64,000 nucleotides of DNA from Desulfurella acetivorans A63 (GTDB taxonomy: Bacteria > Campylobacterota_A > Desulfurellia > Desulfurellales > Desulfurellaceae), in the NCBI GenBank assembly GCA_000517565.1, contig CP007051.1:1726001-1790000 (forward strand), in the 5' to 3' direction. The notes below the pieces were generated by a model. It searched no databases. It was not told the DNA's origin and was given only the letters and a program-made list of their open reading frames with translations. Of the stretch, positions 49 to 31,132 are shown one piece after another (position 1 is the stretch's first letter; every line of letters begins with the position of its first letter). The position numbers were made by a program, and so were the translations under genes.

Positions 49-1272
49 TTATATTGGCCTGTATTGATCTGGCTTGTATCCATATTTTGTATCTGCTATA
101 AGCTCATACAGTCTTGCAAAACCTGTTGCACCACTTGGGCATTCGTATTTGGCTTTGATTTTGCCAAACTCAAATTTATCTGTTCCAACTTTGTTTTGCA
201 AGAAATCCCACTCATCTTTACCCACTATTTCATGCCAGTAATCAGCCAAAGCTTTCCTACCATCTGGTGTATCAGCTGCACGGTTTGCTTGAATATAGAA
301 TTTCCACCACATCCAATCATAGTCATACAGGTAAGTCACATTTGTTGGGTAGCCACCCCATGGTGTTTCTACAATTGCATCAACATGTATCATTGGAATC
401 TGGTTTTCAGATGGTCTAAATCTCAATTCTTCTTCTGGTACTATCTTTTCGGTAGCAATTACTAAGTATTTTGCACTCAGTGATTGCTCAACATCCGGCA
501 CAAGCAAACCTTCAATTCGTGCTGTACCTTTATTACCGCACCTTTGAACATGTGTAGTTGCAAGATAAGGTATTGAAGGTGGATACAAAACAGCTTTTAC
601 GCCTGGTTTTCCTGTATATTTTGTAGCCTGTTTTCTTAATTTTTCATAATATATACCATCTTCTTCTGCTGCAGTTTTATTCCATGTGGTATCTGGTACA
701 TCGCCTGGTGACCACTTATTTTCTGGGTCATATTGGTGAGGTCTAAGTCCCCAACCATCAAACGGGTCATCTATAATTACCTGTCTGGCTGGTGGGATAT
801 CCGGGTGGATCCACATACCTTTTTCGTTTTTGCCTCTAAGACCTGCTTTACCAAAAATATCGTATTCAATTAAATCAGAACCTATATCTGTCATACCTGT
901 TGCAAACTGCATTCCAAAGCGTCCAGCATGTGTCCTGAGTGCCCAGGAATAGTTAGAAAATAGCATATATGCACTGATGTCGCCATCCTCTAAGCCTTTT
1001 CTAATCTCGTAAGAAACTGGTTGTATAGTTTCAAGTCCAATATATGTCATTTCAATCCAATCAAGTTGCCCAGCGCCTGCCATCATCATAACAGGTGTAG
1101 CGCCTGCGTTTGTTTGCAAATATAGATTAGGTATATTTTGTCTGATTACTTCTCTTGGAATTGATGCATTGGTCCTTGTATAACCAAATCCACCCACAAC
1201 CCAAGCCCTGTGTGGCTTAACAAACTTGCTTACCACTTCTTTGATGGACATTATTTTACTTGCTTCTGCCAT
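49..1272 (-). CDS. Family I CoA-transferase, alpha subunit-like (glutaconate CoA-transferase subunit A type)
   Basis: This 407-residue protein resembles the alpha subunit of glutaconate/3-oxoacid CoA-transferases, which move CoA between acyl-CoA and a carboxylic acid in the cytoplasm. Family-like stretches are the N-terminal KIMSIKEVV...VGGFGYTR region, a central GMTDIGSDL block, KAVLYPPSIPYLATTHVQ and a late IPMIHVDAIVETPWGGYPT block. It is longer than the usual 320 or so residues, with extra sequence near 150-210 and at the C-terminus. The start follows AGGAGGAGGAC and overlaps the upstream gene by 17 bases. The catalytic glutamate of this family is on the beta subunit, which would be the next cistron. 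Substrate is unknown. Confidence 0.75.
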   Translation of the reverse strand: MAEASKIMSIKEVVSKFVKPHRAWVVGGFGYTRTNASIPREVIRQNIPNLYLQTNAGATPVMMMAGAGQLDWIEMTYIGLETIQPVSYEIRKGLEDGDISAYMLFSNYSWALRTHAGRFGMQFATGMTDIGSDLIEYDIFGKAGLRGKNEKGMWIHPDIPPARQVIIDDPFDGWGLRPHQYDPENKWSPGDVPDTTWNKTAAEEDGIYYEKLRKQATKYTGKPGVKAVLYPPSIPYLATTHVQRCGNKGTARIEGLLVPDVEQSLSAKYLVIATEKIVPEEELRFRPSENQIPMIHVDAIVETPWGGYPTNVTYLYDYDWMWWKFYIQANRAADTPDGRKALADYWHEIVGKDEWDFLQNKVGTDKFEFGKIKAKYECPSGATGFARLYELIADTKYGYKPDQYRPI

Positions 1273-1657
1273 AAAGTCCTCCTCCTAAATTTTTATAGAA
1301 TTCTTCTAACATCTCGATATCTTCCTCAGTTTTCTTAATTGTACCATTATTATCTGCATGTTCAATTGGTACACCCAAAGTATCACTTAAAATTTGCATA
1401 AATTCTGTGACTTTTTCAAATTTCATAAAGCTTATGTAGATATCTATAGTATAATCTTTGTTAAAGTAAATAACGGGATACATTTCATCGAAATCAAGTT
1501 TTTCGTTTTCTTTTGAATAAGGAATTAGTCTGAAACCTTGATTTTCGATATCTACAATTTTACCCAGGCTTTCAACTTTTTTTCTAATCTCTTCAAATGT
1601 TATTAAATCACCACCACCAATAATATAGCCTGGAAGCGTTGTAAAATCCCCGCCCAC
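1256..1657 (-). CDS. Conserved-looking hypothetical protein in CoA-transferase operon
   Basis: A 133-residue soluble, acidic, mixed alpha/beta protein that I do not recognise. It starts with GTG behind AAAGGAG; the GTG overlaps the stop of the preceding gene by one base (TAGTG), and its own 3' end overlaps the CoA-transferase gene by 17 bases, so translation of the three genes is probably coupled. It has no signal peptide, membrane segment or metal-binding Cys/His cluster. A role as accessory subunit or chaperone of the CoA-transferase is only a guess from the gene order. Confidence 0.6.
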   Translation of the reverse strand: MGGDFTTLPGYIIGGGDLITFEEIRKKVESLGKIVDIENQGFRLIPYSKENEKLDFDEMYPVIYFNKDYTIDIYISFMKFEKVTEFMQILSDTLGVPIEHADNNGTIKKTEEDIEMLEEFYKNLGGGLYGRSK

Positions 1658-2022
1658 TATTTAAGCTCCTTTCGCCTTGCCCAAATTAACCTTAGGGCAT
1701 TTTCAACTTTTTCTTGTGCATATTCTATCATTTCATGGGCATTTTTTAGATAATCAAGATTTTTTCTAAGTTCGTTTTCAGCAACATCTGCTGTCTTATT
1801 TGAGTTCATTTGCTCAATTAGCTTTGTAATACGTGTTAGGACGCCTGGCATTTTTTTAAATTGCCACATCCATGTATCAAAATAGTAATTTGACATGGAC
1901 AAATCCCAAACTTCATTAGTTAATTTCAACCAAACCTGCACATCCTCAATATCCTTTGGTTGTTGCACCTCCTGCGGCTTTTCTCTAGCCGTTTTTTTAA
2001 ATGCTTTCGGATAGGCTATCAC
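1657..2022 (-). CDS. Hypothetical helical protein, first gene of CoA-transferase operon
   Basis: A 121-residue, largely helical, charged protein with an aromatic patch (YYFDTWMWQF near residue 48) that I cannot assign. I place the start at the GTG at 2022, because AGGAGGT lies five bases upstream; the longer open frame to 2109 would add a tail without a ribosome-binding site. It is followed with a one-base overlap by the second unknown protein and then the CoA-transferase alpha-like gene. Probably the first cistron of the operon, since the upstream gene is divergent. Confidence 0.6.
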   Translation of the reverse strand: MIAYPKAFKKTAREKPQEVQQPKDIEDVQVWLKLTNEVWDLSMSNYYFDTWMWQFKKMPGVLTRITKLIEQMNSNKTADVAENELRKNLDYLKNAHEMIEYAQEKVENALRLIWARRKELK

Positions 2023-2275
2023 GCTACACCTCCTACTATAAATATATTTACTCTTAATTTGTATAATACAAAATATAAATAAAAAGTCAAGTATTTTTTT
2101 ATTATTCATTTATTTTATGTGAGAATAGTAAATTTTTGTAAGTTAATTCATAAATTTTTATTATACATTGATATTAACTGAAAATTTTGTAATTTTTTGA
2201 AACTACCAATATGAATAATATTGCAAATAATTTAAAAATGAGTATAAAAAGATGTTAGTTAAAGGAGGAGATTGT

Positions 2276-9309: not shown

Positions 9310-10530
9310 ATGAGTGTCTTTAAAAAAATAGCTCTAATTGTTGCGGTTTTTGCATTTGTTTTCTTACCACGTCTAGTATTTGCAGCTGAACCTATTAACA
9401 TTGGCATTATAGCAGAACAAGGTACACTTGTAGGTGATTCTATTGTCAATGGGGCAAAATTAGCAGCAGACCAAATTAATGCAAAAGGTGGCATTGATGG
9501 AAGGCCTATTAAGCTATTTATTTACGATGATCATATGCGAGCAACAGATGCTGTTCAAGCTTTTCAAAGAGCTGTTTACGATCATCATGTAGTTGCAGTT
9601 GTTGGTAGCTGGATAAGTGAAGTTGCACTCGCACTTGAGCCTTGGGCAGCAAGACTGCATACAATATATATAACTACAGGCGCAGCTGATCCAAAAATAA
9701 CCCAAGTGGTACATAATAATTACAATATGTACAAATATGTATTTCAATTAAAGTACAATGCTACCGAAATGGCGCAAACCGTGTGCAATTTTATACGCGA
9801 TGATTTAGTAAAACAGTATGGCTACAAAACTGCCTTTGTTGCAAGTGAAAATGCAGCATGGACTGAACCATTAGATGCAGAATACCTAAAATGTCTTCCA
9901 CAAACTGGTATCAAAGTGGTAGGTCATATGAGATTTGCACCAAATACAACTGATTTTACACCTATATTCACCGATATAAAATCTAAAAATCCTGATCTTT
10001 TAGTAACCGGTTGGGCACATACAGGTCTTCAACAAACTGTTCAATGGCATGAAGCAAAATATCCTTTTTTGATAGTTGGAATAAACGCACAGGCAAGTAC
10101 ATCTGACTTCTGGAAAAAAAGCAATGGAGCAACAGAAGGCATAATTAGTCAAGCAGAAGGATCTCCTGCTCCAATAACACCAAAAACCATACCTTTTGTT
10201 AAAGAATACGAGAAAGTATTTGGCATAACACCCGCTTATGGTGGCTATACAACATATGATGCTATATATGTGCTGGCACAGGCTATAAAAAGAGCTAAAT
10301 CAACAAACACTGATGCACTTATTAAAGCACTTGAAGCTACAAATTACATTGGTGTTATGGGACATATAGAGTTTTATGGAAAAGAAAGTCCATATGCACA
10401 TGGCATAAAATATGGCCCTTCATATGCAACCGGCGTTATGTTGCAATGGCAACACGGCAAATTAGAAACGGTTTGGCCACCTCATGCAGCAACAGCTAAA
10501 GTTATTATACCTTCGTTTGTTAAAAAATGA
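9310..10530 (+). CDS. livK: Periplasmic substrate-binding protein of a Liv-type ABC importer
   Basis: A 406-residue protein with a signal peptide (MSVFKKI..., cleavage near VFA-AEP, residue 26). The mature part has the type I periplasmic-binding fold typical of LivJ/LivK and amide-binding proteins (INIGIIAEQG...GDSIVNGAKLAADQINAKGGIDG; later PAYGGYTTYDAIYVLAQAI). It captures the ligand for the LivH/LivM channel encoded next. Family ligands range from branched-chain amino acids to aromatic and dicarboxylic acids. The downstream acyl-CoA genes suggest an organic acid. The start follows AAAGGAGGTTTAAAA. The stop overlaps the livH start by four bases. Confidence 0.85.
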   Translation: MSVFKKIALIVAVFAFVFLPRLVFAAEPINIGIIAEQGTLVGDSIVNGAKLAADQINAKGGIDGRPIKLFIYDDHMRATDAVQAFQRAVYDHHVVAVVGSWISEVALALEPWAARLHTIYITTGAADPKITQVVHNNYNMYKYVFQLKYNATEMAQTVCNFIRDDLVKQYGYKTAFVASENAAWTEPLDAEYLKCLPQTGIKVVGHMRFAPNTTDFTPIFTDIKSKNPDLLVTGWAHTGLQQTVQWHEAKYPFLIVGINAQASTSDFWKKSNGATEGIISQAEGSPAPITPKTIPFVKEYEKVFGITPAYGGYTTYDAIYVLAQAIKRAKSTNTDALIKALEATNYIGVMGHIEFYGKESPYAHGIKYGPSYATGVMLQWQHGKLETVWPPHAATAKVIIPSFVKK

Positions 10531-11405
10531 ACCTTTTTTGGCAAATTTTATTTGATGGCTTTATTATTAGTTCGATTTACGCTGTGGGAGTAGTAGGGTT
10601 TTCTCTTATCTTTGGCACAGCAGGAGTACTTAATCTCTCCCACGGTGCTTTTTTAGTATTGAGTGCAATCATTTCCTGGTTTTTTATAAGTCATTTTCAT
10701 CTGCCTTTATTAGCTGGTATGGTTGTTGGCGTTTTAGCTTCAATAGCAGTCTCATACTTGTTATTTGTATTGCTTATAAACCCCATAGACAAATCTAAAA
10801 AAATACCCACTACAGAAAAAGAAATTTTTATACTTACAGCTACGCTTTTATGGTCTATGATTATAGAAGAATTACTGGATTATTTTTTCAGCTCAAATCC
10901 TGTTGTTGTGCCTCCTTTTGTAAAAGGTGTTTTAAACTTGTTTAAAATGAATATAACATACAATGAAATTCTGCTTTCATTTGCTTCTATTTTAATTCTG
11001 ATTATTTTGTGGACTTTTATAAACAAAACAAAAACAGGGAAAGTTTTGCTTGCAGCATCTATGAGCCATGACGGTTTGGCAATAAGCGGTATTGATATTA
11101 AAAAGGTTTATATACTTTTGTGGGGTGTATACGGCGTATTAACCGGTCTTTCTGGGGCATTGCTTGCTTCTTTTTTGGGTGCAAGTGCCCAAAGCGTTCC
11201 AAGCCTGACTGGACTTGCTTTTTCTGTTGTGGTACTTGGGGGGTTAGGCAATATCACAGGTTCTATTCTGGCAGCATTTCTTATCGGCTATATACAAACT
11301 ATGACTGCTTATTTGATTTCACCTGCATACACATCAATACCTGCTTACGTAATCTTAGTTTTGATACTTATGTTTAAACCAAAAGGTTTGTTTGGTAGGT
11401 TTTAG
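10527..11405 (+). CDS. livH: Liv-type ABC importer permease (LivH family)
   Basis: A 292-residue polytopic membrane protein with about eight hydrophobic helices. It has the LivH hallmarks GFSLIFGTAGVLNLSHGAF near the N-terminus, and AISGIDIKKVYILLWGVYG and VVLGGLGNITGS in the C-terminal half, ending KPKGLFGRF. It forms half of the channel with LivM. Its ATG overlaps the livK stop (ATGA). Confidence 0.88.
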   Translation: MNLFWQILFDGFIISSIYAVGVVGFSLIFGTAGVLNLSHGAFLVLSAIISWFFISHFHLPLLAGMVVGVLASIAVSYLLFVLLINPIDKSKKIPTTEKEIFILTATLLWSMIIEELLDYFFSSNPVVVPPFVKGVLNLFKMNITYNEILLSFASILILIILWTFINKTKTGKVLLAASMSHDGLAISGIDIKKVYILLWGVYGVLTGLSGALLASFLGASAQSVPSLTGLAFSVVVLGGLGNITGSILAAFLIGYIQTMTAYLISPAYTSIPAYVILVLILMFKPKGLFGRF

Positions 11406-24669: not shown

Positions 24670-25743
24670 ATGCAAGATCTTCAAGAAAAAGCCATTTTAG
24701 TTAGCGTATTTTTAAACGTAAAAGATGAAAAGTCATTGCAAGAATTAGAAGAACTTGCCAAAACAGCTGGCGCAGAAGTTGTTGGCGTATTAACACAAAA
24801 ACGAAAAAACATAGATAAAACTTACTATTTAGGAAAAGGCAAAATAGAAGAGCTAAAAAATCTAATTGAACAAAAAGGTGCTAATATTGTCATATTTAAC
24901 AACGAACTATCTGGTAGCCAGGTAAAAAATATCGAAGATATACTAAATACAAAAGTTATTGATAGAACCAATCTAATCTTAGACATATTTGCAAAACATG
25001 CCAAAACAAAAGAAGGTATGCTTCAGGTAAAGCTTGCCCAGTTAAAATATTCACTTACAAGATTAAGAGGCATAGGCGTTACACTTTCAAGATTGGGTGG
25101 TGGCATAGGCACAAGGGGTCCTGGCGAAACACAACTGGAAACAGACATAAGGCATATCAAGCGCTCTATTTTACACATTGAAAAACAAATTGAAGAAATA
25201 AAACAACATAGGAGTCTATACAGGAAAAGAAGACAAAAAAATCAAATTCCTGTAGTTGCCATAATAGGATATACAAATGCAGGTAAATCAACTTTAATTA
25301 ATGCACTTACCAATGCAGATGCCTATGTTGAAAATAAGTTATTTGCAACGCTGGATCCTTTAGCTAGAAAATTACGTTTGCCCAATAACAAAATAGTTCT
25401 ATTGATTGATACGGTTGGTTTTATTAAAAATTTACCCCACCAGTTAATTGAAGCTTTCAAATCAACGCTTGAAGAAATAAAATTTGCAGATTTAATATTA
25501 AATGTTGTTGATATAAGTCAGAATGATTACGAAGAAAAAATTAAAGTAACAGAAAAAATCCTATCAGATTTAGAGTGTTTCAATAAACCAGTTATTACAG
25601 TTTACAATAAATCAGATTTACTTGAAATATTACCAAAAAACACTGATAAAGAAGTATATATATCAGCTAAATACAAAACTAATTTACATGATTTGGTTTT
25701 TTGCATACAAAACGCGCTTGAATCAGGCAACAAATCTTTATAA
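24670..25743 (+). CDS. hflX: Ribosome-associated GTPase HflX
   Basis: A 357-residue protein with the N-terminal HflX domain (YYLGKGKIEELK, NNELSGSQVKN, DRTNLILDIFAKHAKT), the linker GGGIGTRGPGETQLE, and a GTPase domain. The GTPase motifs are G1 GYTNAGKST (about residue 201), G3 DTVGF and G4 NKSD. HflX splits stalled or stress-inactivated 70S ribosomes. No good ribosome-binding site is visible, so it is probably coupled to the dehydrogenase upstream. Confidence 0.93.
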   Translation: MQDLQEKAILVSVFLNVKDEKSLQELEELAKTAGAEVVGVLTQKRKNIDKTYYLGKGKIEELKNLIEQKGANIVIFNNELSGSQVKNIEDILNTKVIDRTNLILDIFAKHAKTKEGMLQVKLAQLKYSLTRLRGIGVTLSRLGGGIGTRGPGETQLETDIRHIKRSILHIEKQIEEIKQHRSLYRKRRQKNQIPVVAIIGYTNAGKSTLINALTNADAYVENKLFATLDPLARKLRLPNNKIVLLIDTVGFIKNLPHQLIEAFKSTLEEIKFADLILNVVDISQNDYEEKIKVTEKILSDLECFNKPVITVYNKSDLLEILPKNTDKEVYISAKYKTNLHDLVFCIQNALESGNKSL

Positions 25744-26058
25744 AATTTTCATTCTGATCTTTGCAAAGTAAACATTTATTTGTTTATCTGCAAAATACAT
25801 CAAAACTACATCTGTTTCAGGTGTGGAGTTACCCAGTTTAGCACCATCTGTAACAAAAAAATTATCACCTTCATTTAAAGAAGGCAAAAGGACCTTACCC
25901 AAATCTCGATTTTTCCAGCTCACATAACTTTTTTGACTTTCATAAAAGTATTCTACATCATCAAAGCCATTTTGTTTTGCAAAACTGTCAATTGTAGCTT
26001 TTTGTACGAGTTTTTCGCTTTCATCGTCTGCAACTATATATGCAACGTTTCTAGGCAT
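25738..26058 (-). CDS. Serine-recombinase-like N-terminal domain protein lacking catalytic residues
   Basis: A 106-residue protein whose pattern matches the resolvase/invertase catalytic fold: VAYIVADD at the start where recombinases have YIRVS-(T/x), a mid WKNRDLGKVLL segment, and VTDGAKLGNS where they have SELSRLGRS. The nucleophile serine is replaced (Asp at about residue 11), both arginines of the RLGR motif are Lys and Asn (residues 74 and 77), and there is no DNA-binding C-terminal domain. It cannot recombine DNA by the known mechanism; a structural or regulatory role is inferred. ATG at 26058 follows GGGGGT. The 61-residue gene is 11 bases upstream. Confidence 0.6.
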   Translation of the reverse strand: MPRNVAYIVADDESEKLVQKATIDSFAKQNGFDDVEYFYESQKSYVSWKNRDLGKVLLPSLNEGDNFFVTDGAKLGNSTPETDVVLMYFADKQINVYFAKIRMKIL

Positions 26059-26069
26059 AATACCCCCAT

Positions 26070-26255
26070 TTATAGTAATTTTATAACATCAGTTTCTTCA
26101 TTTATTAAGATTTCAGACACATTTGGAGATCTTTTGTAGCGTTCTATCATTTTCTTTTTGGCTTCGCTTTTATTTTCTGCTTTTACAATGTTTGTAGTAA
26201 CTACTTTCTTTTCGTCTTTATATATAAGCATAGCCAGAACTTTATACGTATTCAT
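26070..26255 (-). CDS. Small hypothetical protein, 61 residues
   Basis: A basic/acidic alpha-beta mini-protein, unrecognised. It starts behind AAAAGGTGT and precedes the recombinase-like gene by 11 bases, so the two form a probable two-gene operon. No signal peptide or membrane helix. The NKSEAKKKM(x)3Y segment resembles the helix of small beta-alpha-beta-beta domains, but no assignment is possible. Confidence 0.5.
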   Translation of the reverse strand: MNTYKVLAMLIYKDEKKVVTTNIVKAENKSEAKKKMIERYKRSPNVSEILINEETDVIKLL

Positions 26256-28941: not shown

Positions 28942-29901
28942 ATGAAAAAGTTCTGGCTTGTTTGTTTTACGTTATTTTGGTTTATTGGTAGCTTTAGTAA
29001 CGCTTTTGCAAAAATTGGTATACTTACTCCTCATGAACTAGCTTCCATGATGAAAACAGATCAAAATCTGGTAATTATTGACGCAAGGGACCATAGTTCA
29101 TACATTGCATCGCATATACCAAAAGCTATCAATATAAGCCCAACTGGCAGTTTATTTACTGGTTTTGGGCCAAATCCTTTTGCTGTAGTTGATTCAAATC
29201 CACAATTACAAAAAGTATTATCTCAAAAAGGCATCAGAAATGATTCAGACTGTGTAGTATACACAGGTTCATCTACAGCTTTTGGTGTCAAAGGTGGTAA
29301 TCCTGCTTTTGCTCTAACCAGTGCAACACGCATAATGGCCGTCCTTTACTATGCTGGTGTTAAAAATGTTTATTACCTAAACGGTGGTTTTGACAAATGG
29401 GTAGACGAAAAATTACCTGTCCAAAAAGGTGACTATGCTTTAAAAACCAGCCATTTTGTTATTGTAAGAAATAACCCATTTGTTTTTGCAAATGAAGATT
29501 TTATAAGGTGGGCAGTTAAACACGAAAACGAAATTCAGTTTGTTGATTCTAGAATGTATCCAGAATATACAGGGCAGGTTAATGATGAAAAGTTTGGTGT
29601 TTCAAAACTCGGTCATATTAAAGGTGCAAGGAATGTATTTGTTGGCGAATACATGGAAAAAGTTGACAATTATTATGTGATTAAACCAAAAGCTCAAATT
29701 GAACAAATACTTCAAAAAGCTGGCATTGATCCAAATAAGCCTATGATCTCATATTGCCACATTGGTTATTGGGGAAGCGGTTTATGGTTTATTGCCAATG
29801 CTATTTTAGACAATAAACTTGCATGGGATTATAATGGATCTTTAGTTAAAGCTTCTATGGATAAGGACATTCCTTTTGTAAAAGGACCCAATCCTTATTA
29901 A
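28942..29901 (+). CDS. Exported tandem-rhodanese sulfurtransferase (second copy)
   Basis: A 319-residue protein with a signal peptide (cleavage near AFA-K, residue 24) and two rhodanese domains. Domain 1 has LVIIDARDHSSYIASHIPKAI and no cysteine in its loop (VVYTGSSTAFG). Domain 2 has FVDSRMYPEYTG, GHIKGARNVFVGEYMEK and the active cysteine loop SYCHIGYWGSG (about residue 271). It shares its KIGI(I/L)(S/T)..., IKPK and WFIANAI(L/F)D stretches with the protein at 8266-9165, so they are paralogues. Likely periplasmic sulfane-sulfur carrier. The start follows GGAGGTTATTT. Monocistronic, with a strong terminator. Confidence 0.87.
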   Translation: MKKFWLVCFTLFWFIGSFSNAFAKIGILTPHELASMMKTDQNLVIIDARDHSSYIASHIPKAINISPTGSLFTGFGPNPFAVVDSNPQLQKVLSQKGIRNDSDCVVYTGSSTAFGVKGGNPAFALTSATRIMAVLYYAGVKNVYYLNGGFDKWVDEKLPVQKGDYALKTSHFVIVRNNPFVFANEDFIRWAVKHENEIQFVDSRMYPEYTGQVNDEKFGVSKLGHIKGARNVFVGEYMEKVDNYYVIKPKAQIEQILQKAGIDPNKPMISYCHIGYWGSGLWFIANAILDNKLAWDYNGSLVKASMDKDIPFVKGPNPY

Positions 29902-30016: not shown

Positions 30017-31132
30017 ATGCAGTTTATTATTGATGCAAGTATAATAAAAAAAATAATTCCAAGTGTTTCTGGAGCTTTGTCAAAAGACAAAAATTCAATA
30101 TTGAGTAATTACTATGTTAGTATAAAAGACAAAATACTATCGCTAACTTCTTCAAACGATACCGTTCAGATAAATGTAGCTTATCCTGTTGAAAATACAG
30201 GTAATTGCGAATTTTTAGCTAAACCAGACTTGTTTGAAAGACTAAAAGCATTGAATGGAGAAATTTACTTTGAGTTGCAAGACAGTTTGCTAACAATAAA
30301 AAACGGCTCCTATAAAACAACAGCAAAAATTTTCAAAAACAATGACTATCCTTTGGAATCAACTGCCGATTACAACACTATTGGTACTTTTGATTCAAAT
30401 GAAATATTAGAACTACTAAAAGCCCATATTGCAAGCAGCAAAGAAGACGAACAAACAAGAGAATTCACAGGAATATTAATAGAAATTGATCAAAATAAAG
30501 CAAACTTTGTAGCAACAAACCGATCAAGACTATTTTGGATAAACAAAAAAATAGATATTGATAAAAACTTTTACTGTATAATTGAAAAAGAAGGCATACT
30601 ACAGCTTAGTCGTGTCTTAAAGGCCAATGATAAGATAAATATGCTATATAAAGGCAATCCTGAAAATATAACAAAGATAGCTTTTCAAAGCTCAAACGCA
30701 ACAATAATCTCCAAAACAATAAATGGTCAATTTCCACAATACCAAGCCGTTGTATTGGAAGACGCCCAAAATGTATCATGTATAATATTTGACAGAGAAT
30801 CTCTAAAAAGTTCACTTCAAAAAGTACTGGCACTATCAAGTGATGATCTTGGAGTTGTTGAATTTAACATTAAAGAGAATACTGTTGAGCTAACAGTAAC
30901 AAACAAAGAAGGCGAAGTTGCAACAGATATTATTGATTTCTTGACTTGTCAAGAAAAAACACATACACAAATTACCCTAAATATCAATGGCCGCTATACT
31001 CTGGATTTTTTAAATAATGTACAATCTAGTTCAATTTATTTTTATTATAAAGAAGCAATTAAACCTCTTGAATTAAAAGCAATAAGCGAAAGTAAAATAA
31101 ATTACATATATGTCATGACACCTGTAAGATAA
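30017..31132 (+). CDS. dnaN: DNA polymerase III beta subunit (sliding clamp)
   Basis: A 371-residue three-domain clamp that holds the replicative polymerase on DNA. Clamp-like features are a start with MQFIIDASIIKKIIPSVSGALS, GTFDSNEILELLKAHIASSKEDEQTREFTGILIEI in the second domain, and the C-terminal INYIYVMTPVR, matching the usual YLIMPMRL end of the protein-binding pocket. The start follows AGGGGGTTTT. It is away from dnaA and gyrB, which are not in the window; a terminator precedes it and a convergent cupin gene abuts its stop. Confidence 0.9.
   Translation: MQFIIDASIIKKIIPSVSGALSKDKNSILSNYYVSIKDKILSLTSSNDTVQINVAYPVENTGNCEFLAKPDLFERLKALNGEIYFELQDSLLTIKNGSYKTTAKIFKNNDYPLESTADYNTIGTFDSNEILELLKAHIASSKEDEQTREFTGILIEIDQNKANFVATNRSRLFWINKKIDIDKNFYCIIEKEGILQLSRVLKANDKINMLYKGNPENITKIAFQSSNATIISKTINGQFPQYQAVVLEDAQNVSCIIFDRESLKSSLQKVLALSSDDLGVVEFNIKENTVELTVTNKEGEVATDIIDFLTCQEKTHTQITLNINGRYTLDFLNNVQSSSIYFYYKEAIKPLELKAISESKINYIYVMTPVR

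Follow-up and report, generated by a model that had tools for sequence, protein, structure and literature searches.

A predicted catalytically dead serine-recombinase domain and its 61-residue partner, a possible accessory module of a CoA-transferase system in Desulfurella acetivorans and its class

Two small genes, P0002 and P0001, are found in the window, which is the whole stretch of 64,000 nucleotides of the Desulfurella acetivorans A63 genome that was analysed. The first-pass annotation had described them as a two-gene unit at 25738-26255, coding for proteins of 61 and 106 residues with a gap of 11 bases, and these coordinates and the 11-nt spacing were confirmed, on the minus strand (Table 1). 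The good ribosome-binding site attributed to the longer gene is present as a purine-rich GGGGG, and P0002 is preceded by a purine-rich AAAGG. Upstream of the pair, TTGACT-17-TATAAT suggests a possible sigma-70 promoter; comparable sites were frequent in shuffled sequence in the consensus scan, but the position is fitting. The 3′ end of P0001 overlaps the end of the convergent hflX gene by 6 nt. The G+C content of the pair (31%) matches that of its neighbours (31-32%), so there is no sign of recent arrival. The housekeeping neighbourhood that had been pointed out (hflX, ackA-pta) is indeed there, but it is confined to the genus of the window and is uninformative on role; a functional link of the pair to hflX or ackA-pta was rejected on these grounds. 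Two further genes in the window are an apparent secreted two-domain rhodanese (sulfurtransferase) at 28942-29901 and, adjoining it, an apparent DnaN sliding clamp gene at 30017-31132.

Table 1. Features of the gene pair and of the linked operon. Labels such as g4, g5, g7 and f3 are genus or family labels internal to the analysis; G000 and the like are genome labels.
Feature	Position	Strand	Description and basis
Putative sigma-70 promoter of P0002-P0001	26282..26310	(-)	TTGACT-17-TATAAT, 11/12 consensus matches, in the gap after ackA
P0002	26255..26070	(-)	61-aa basic protein, predicted beta-beta-alpha-beta fold; ORF and orthologues
P0001	26058..25738	(-)	106-aa protein, predicted dead serine-recombinase catalytic domain, without helix E or DNA-binding domain; ORF, PF00239, model, Foldseek
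c2	1657..2109	(-)	Helical small protein, operon head; translation probably begins some codons into the ORF
c3	1256..1657	(-)	Small protein; ORF and synteny
c5	49..1272	(-)	CoA-transferase subunit; PF01144 found in an orthologue
c7 and c8	Just outside the window (L084, G000:C1:1724616-1726034)		Second CoA-transferase subunit (c7, PF01144) and YgiT-type zinc finger (c8)

The resemblance of the P0001 protein to resolvases proved to be beyond chance. The Pfam Resolvase family, PF00239, matched all 14 aligned members of the P0001 family (best E 1.7e-8), and the window protein by itself scored 23.2 bits, at a cut-off of 23.3. An AlphaFold2 model, based on an alignment of eight sequences, had a pLDDT of 92.1 and a pTM of 0.85. 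The top matches of this model in a Foldseek comparison with the PDB were all serine recombinases, the best of them Sin (3pkz, E 4.4e-6, probability 1.00), and a comparison with a viral library led again to the serine-recombinase family. A second family member, modelled separately, gave the same fold. On the strength of these models, P0001 is confidently predicted to have the fold of a resolvase-type serine-recombinase catalytic domain. With serine recombinases in general (PF00239; Sin, gamma-delta and Tn3 resolvases, Mpi/Hin-type invertases) it has in common the fold, the order of secondary structures, the equivalents of Q19 and R45 and the GDxLIV and (K/R)LGxS patterns, and with the nearest intact invertases also a SWKxR motif. 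Unlike these enzymes, P0001 stops at residue 106, just before helix E, whereas its intact relatives run on into this helix; the C-terminal DNA-binding domain is missing as well. In resolvases, helix E makes dimer and DNA contacts. Members of the family are mostly acidic or neutral. Dimerisation and nucleotide or nucleic-acid sensing, the roles that had been suggested for the protein, are not directly supported by any of the results, and helix E, which P0001 does not have, is the canonical helix for dimerisation.

The active-site residues were compared, in gamma-delta numbering, by alignment with intact full-length relatives from other phyla, which show the pattern YxRVST ... SGxKSWKxRK ... ELSRLGRS followed by helix E. 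In the window protein R8 is replaced by V, the nucleophile S10 by D, R68 by K and R71 by N. R8 and R71 both belong to the active site of known serine recombinases. Neither of them survives in any of the 15 intact P0001 orthologues, where R8 is Q or V and R71 is N, S or A, and the nucleophile position is occupied by D or E in 13 of the 15, Ser being kept only in two copies of g7, the most distant relatives that carry the pair. These g7 copies already lack R8 and R71 while their Ser remains, which suggests that the arginines were lost before the nucleophile. R68 is K in the genus of the window and R in the other 12 orthologues, and Q19 and the R45 equivalent (R51 of P0001) are invariant across the family. 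The proposed catalytic loss therefore needs qualification: the nucleophile, the arginines of the RLGR motif (R68 to K, R71 to N) and the DNA-binding domain are gone, but R45 and Q19 are kept. Judged by the active-site residues and domains that it has lost, P0001 appears to be a catalytically dead serine-recombinase fold.

Orthologues of P0001 were found in 16 of the 25 genomes of its own bacterial class and in no other of the 386 genomes searched. The weaker matches beyond the orthologues were only full-length recombinases with an intact motif; homologues with intact catalytic residues do exist, but they are distant enzymes and not orthologues. The gene is single copy, and its length and sequence are conserved across three families. 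Pairwise dN/dS values ranged from 0.028 to 0.076 within the genus of the window; a second genus gave 0.035, and a comparison of two g7 genomes 0.20. Since dN/dS is low and the residue losses are conserved in the orthologues, P0001 is a copy maintained by purifying selection and not a decayed one, and its interpretation as a decaying gene or pseudogene was rejected. These observations agree with the first-pass annotation, which had proposed that the fold was domesticated, lies outside any mobile element and has taken on a new job: the fold was confirmed, the Ser and Arg losses are a property of the family and are held under purifying selection, and neither mobile-element genes nor tandem repeats were found at the site. 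No relatives were found in viral contigs either. A mobile-element recombinase was likewise rejected for a single-copy, class-restricted gene that is part of a fixed gene pair and shows no element features.

The 61-residue gene travels with P0001, a point that the first-pass annotation had proposed to check, and is its direct upstream neighbour in 15 of 15 intact loci, with a gap of 8-18 nt in the loci measured. P0002 is present in 18 of the 25 genomes of the class and, across the same 386 genomes, was not found outside it; it is the more constant partner of the pair. Its dN/dS is 0.05 within the genus, and the protein is basic in every member (pI 8.0-9.7, about 9.4 for the window copy). By sequence, no known family was found above threshold; an Ssb-like OB fold and a phage regulator family were matched below it, which may be due to chance. 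For a two-protein model, the P0002-P0001 pair of a relative was translated through the stop codon as one chain. Both folds were confident in this read-through model, that of P0002 being a high-confidence beta-beta-alpha-beta prediction; at a pTM of 0.60, however, no confident interface was predicted, and Foldseek matched the recombinase half only.

Comparison of gene orders connected the pair to an operon of five genes, c2-c3-c5-c7-c8, which straddles the edge of the window. The c7 protein matches glutaconate CoA-transferase B (1poi chain B) with an E of 1.1e-22, the Glu of VESG/MEAG being aligned, and c2 and c3 have no Pfam or NCBIfam family match. With its YgiT-type zinc-finger gene, c2-c3-c5-c7 is a hitherto undescribed Gct-type CoA-transferase operon. 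In g7 the order P0002-P0001-c2-c3-c5-c7-c8 runs on one strand. A convergent gene, c4, sits between the pair and c2-c8 in the Hippea-type genera, and in the genus of the window the operon is 24 kb from the pair, on the same strand. Because the pair is not adjacent to the operon in g4, g5 and the genus of the window, co-transcription of the two is not general. In another bacterial order c5 is present in 12 of 12 genomes, with c2 adjoining in nine of the ten whose flanks were read, and the single locus read further out also contained c7 and a weak match to c3. P0001 and P0002 are absent from the c2-c5-c7 loci of that order. Outside the class, then, the core c2-c5-c7 is found without the pair, so that the CoA-transferase module is the older element and the pair was added to it in this lineage only. 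The window genome has a second Gct-type locus near 0.76 Mb. A study of D. acetivorans listed four CoA-transferases, one of them Gct-type (PMC9768450), and, given this second locus, c5-c7 of the window is probably not among the four.

The occurrence of the pair follows that of the operon. Intact P0002, in a count that includes one copy cut by a contig end, and c5 were concordant in 24 of the 25 class genomes; the one that breaks the pattern, G013, is 78% complete. A Fisher test of P0002 against c5, in which relatedness was ignored, gave p 8e-6, and 0.002 for genomes at least 90% complete; the sample consists of related genomes with few independent losses. The pattern for c2 is nearly the same as that of the pair. 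Individual loci tell more than these counts. The order in G006 is c16, c17, pair, c4, c2 onward. G008 is missing c2-c8 between c4 and c9, and its pair is in place but broken, with a frameshift in P0002 and ATA at the start position of P0001 (L015, G008:C30 near 10185-10710); these lesions could in part be assembly errors. G015 has lost the pair as well as c2-c8 but retains c16, c17, c4, c9 and c10 in order. In G023 (L081, G023:C14:227-875) c2 comes directly after P0002, with no P0001 between them, so that the two genes are separable and P0001 can be dispensed with even when P0002 and the operon remain. The c4 gene, judging from its size, class and distribution, is probably a homologue of the OXCT1-type enzyme AHF96498. 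A link of the pair to acetate activation through c4 was considered and rejected; only Hippea-type genomes have c4 next to the pair, the window genome has it at another place, and c4 outlasts the pair in genomes that lost the latter.

We propose, with about an even chance of being right, that P0002-P0001 is a lineage-specific, non-catalytic accessory module of the glutaconate-CoA-transferase-type system c2-c3-c5-c7-c8. The features looked for in an accessory of this kind, co-occurrence and shared gene order with c2-c3-c5-c7, are both present. A DNA-invertase-type catalytic domain would have lost its active site early in the class and been retained as a non-catalytic protein. Contact between proteins is the likeliest mode of action: the mostly acidic P0001 and the basic P0002 would bind each other or a CoA-transferase subunit, and such binding could help the assembly of the enzyme or set its activity or amount. 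Physical contact, the direction of the effect, a pair that does not act on DNA, and the choice between the enzyme and its expression as the point of action are the parts of this proposal that we infer. Against the proposal speak the two-protein model, which gave no confident P0001-P0002 interface, the distance between pair and operon in g4, g5 and the genus of the window, the small number of independent losses among related genomes, and G023, which does without P0001. A narrower version, in which the dead recombinase domain and its 61-residue partner have become, in this class, either a stable subunit of a multi-subunit CoA-transferase or a factor in its assembly, is put forward only tentatively and is rather doubtful.

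The main rival of the accessory module is a nucleic-acid-binding regulator, in which P0002 would bind DNA or RNA and P0001 would oligomerise, the target being the CoA-transferase operon or another one. The co-loss pattern is expected under both. The constant basic character of P0002, the descent of P0001 from a DNA-binding lineage and the location of the pair at the operon head in g7, which is the customary position of a regulator, are in favour of regulation, as are the weak matches of P0002 to the Ssb-like and phage regulator families. However, those matches are below the cut-off, there is no recognisable DNA-binding domain in either protein, and P0001 has no helix E and is mostly acidic or neutral; a regulator is a somewhat unlikely explanation. 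An independent cellular role of the pair, with no relation to the operon, is unlikely; the shared occurrence would then reflect common ancestry and an ancestral locus lost in blocks. The separation of the pair from the operon, beside other genes, in the genus of the window, g4 and g5 would agree with an independent role, and many of the absences fall in incomplete or divergent genomes, while G010 also lacks the neighbouring c4. Nonetheless, the pair and the operon are separate stretches on the two sides of c4, and both are broken or gone in G008 and G015 although c4 and the outer flanks were kept; one block deletion would not account for this. Residual chemistry on DNA or another substrate through Q19 and R45, together with the R68 that is retained outside the genus of the window, is very improbable: these residues and the Ser of the two g7 members would be compatible with it, but R8 and R71 are lost in all members and helix E and the DNA-binding domain are absent. 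Serine recombinases are usually part of mobile elements and P0001 is truncated and inactive, but a decaying remnant of such an element has next to no probability, with dN/dS far below 1, conserved length and sequence, identical active-site losses, a class-wide single copy and a site free of element genes and repeats, the broken copy of G008 being the sole exception.

Inactive enzymes retained for new roles are well known among kinases and proteases. Among serine recombinases the precedent is viral: the poxvirus protein F16 (OPG061) is described as a serine recombinase predicted to be catalytically inactive (PMC4304020, with reference to Senkevich et al. 2011, PMC3163719). Because of F16, the general idea of a dead serine recombinase is not new. 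F16, like P0001, has a serine-recombinase fold with a lost active site and is retained for another role; unlike P0001, it is viral, about 215-265 aa long in the matched entries, and nucleolar in infected cells. F16 was among the viral Foldseek matches of P0001 at weak scores. To our knowledge, it has neither a P0002-like partner nor a connection to CoA-transferases, and the two inactivations were presumably independent. The literature searched yielded no dead serine recombinase from bacteria, whether or not connected with metabolism. P0001 would then be a bacterial, class-wide case, differing from serine recombinases, apart from its missing residues and domains (the nucleophile Ser of two g7 copies excepted), in being a single-copy gene paired with a 61-aa gene and linked to a CoA-transferase operon.

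This concrete link leads to a system that is likewise undescribed, in which a Gct-type CoA-transferase is joined by two additional small proteins. Compared with GctAB (PDB 1poi), of which chain B resembles c7, c5 and c7 are longer and are accompanied by c2 and c3. We know of no dead recombinase or P0002 in CoA-transferases. In the sulfur-reducing Desulfurella and its Hippea relatives, CoA-transferases are at the heart of acetate oxidation. If the subunit or assembly-factor version were true, a fold for DNA rearrangement would have been co-opted for central carbon metabolism. For some of the CoA-transferase activities of D. acetivorans no gene has been assigned (PMC9768450). The OXCT1-type succinyl-CoA:acetate CoA-transferase of this organism (AHF96498, PMC9768450) is a class I CoA-transferase, as is the linked system, but neither it nor c4 is linked to the pair.

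A single intact serine recombinase was found in the window genome, a 200-aa protein unrelated to the pair (L001, G000:C1:221749-222159), the N-terminal region of which resembles the helix-turn-helix of IS607-type TnpA. A close relative, G001, has five resolvase-family genes with very similar scores on contigs C2, C3, C7, C16 and C17, perhaps all derived from a single active element.
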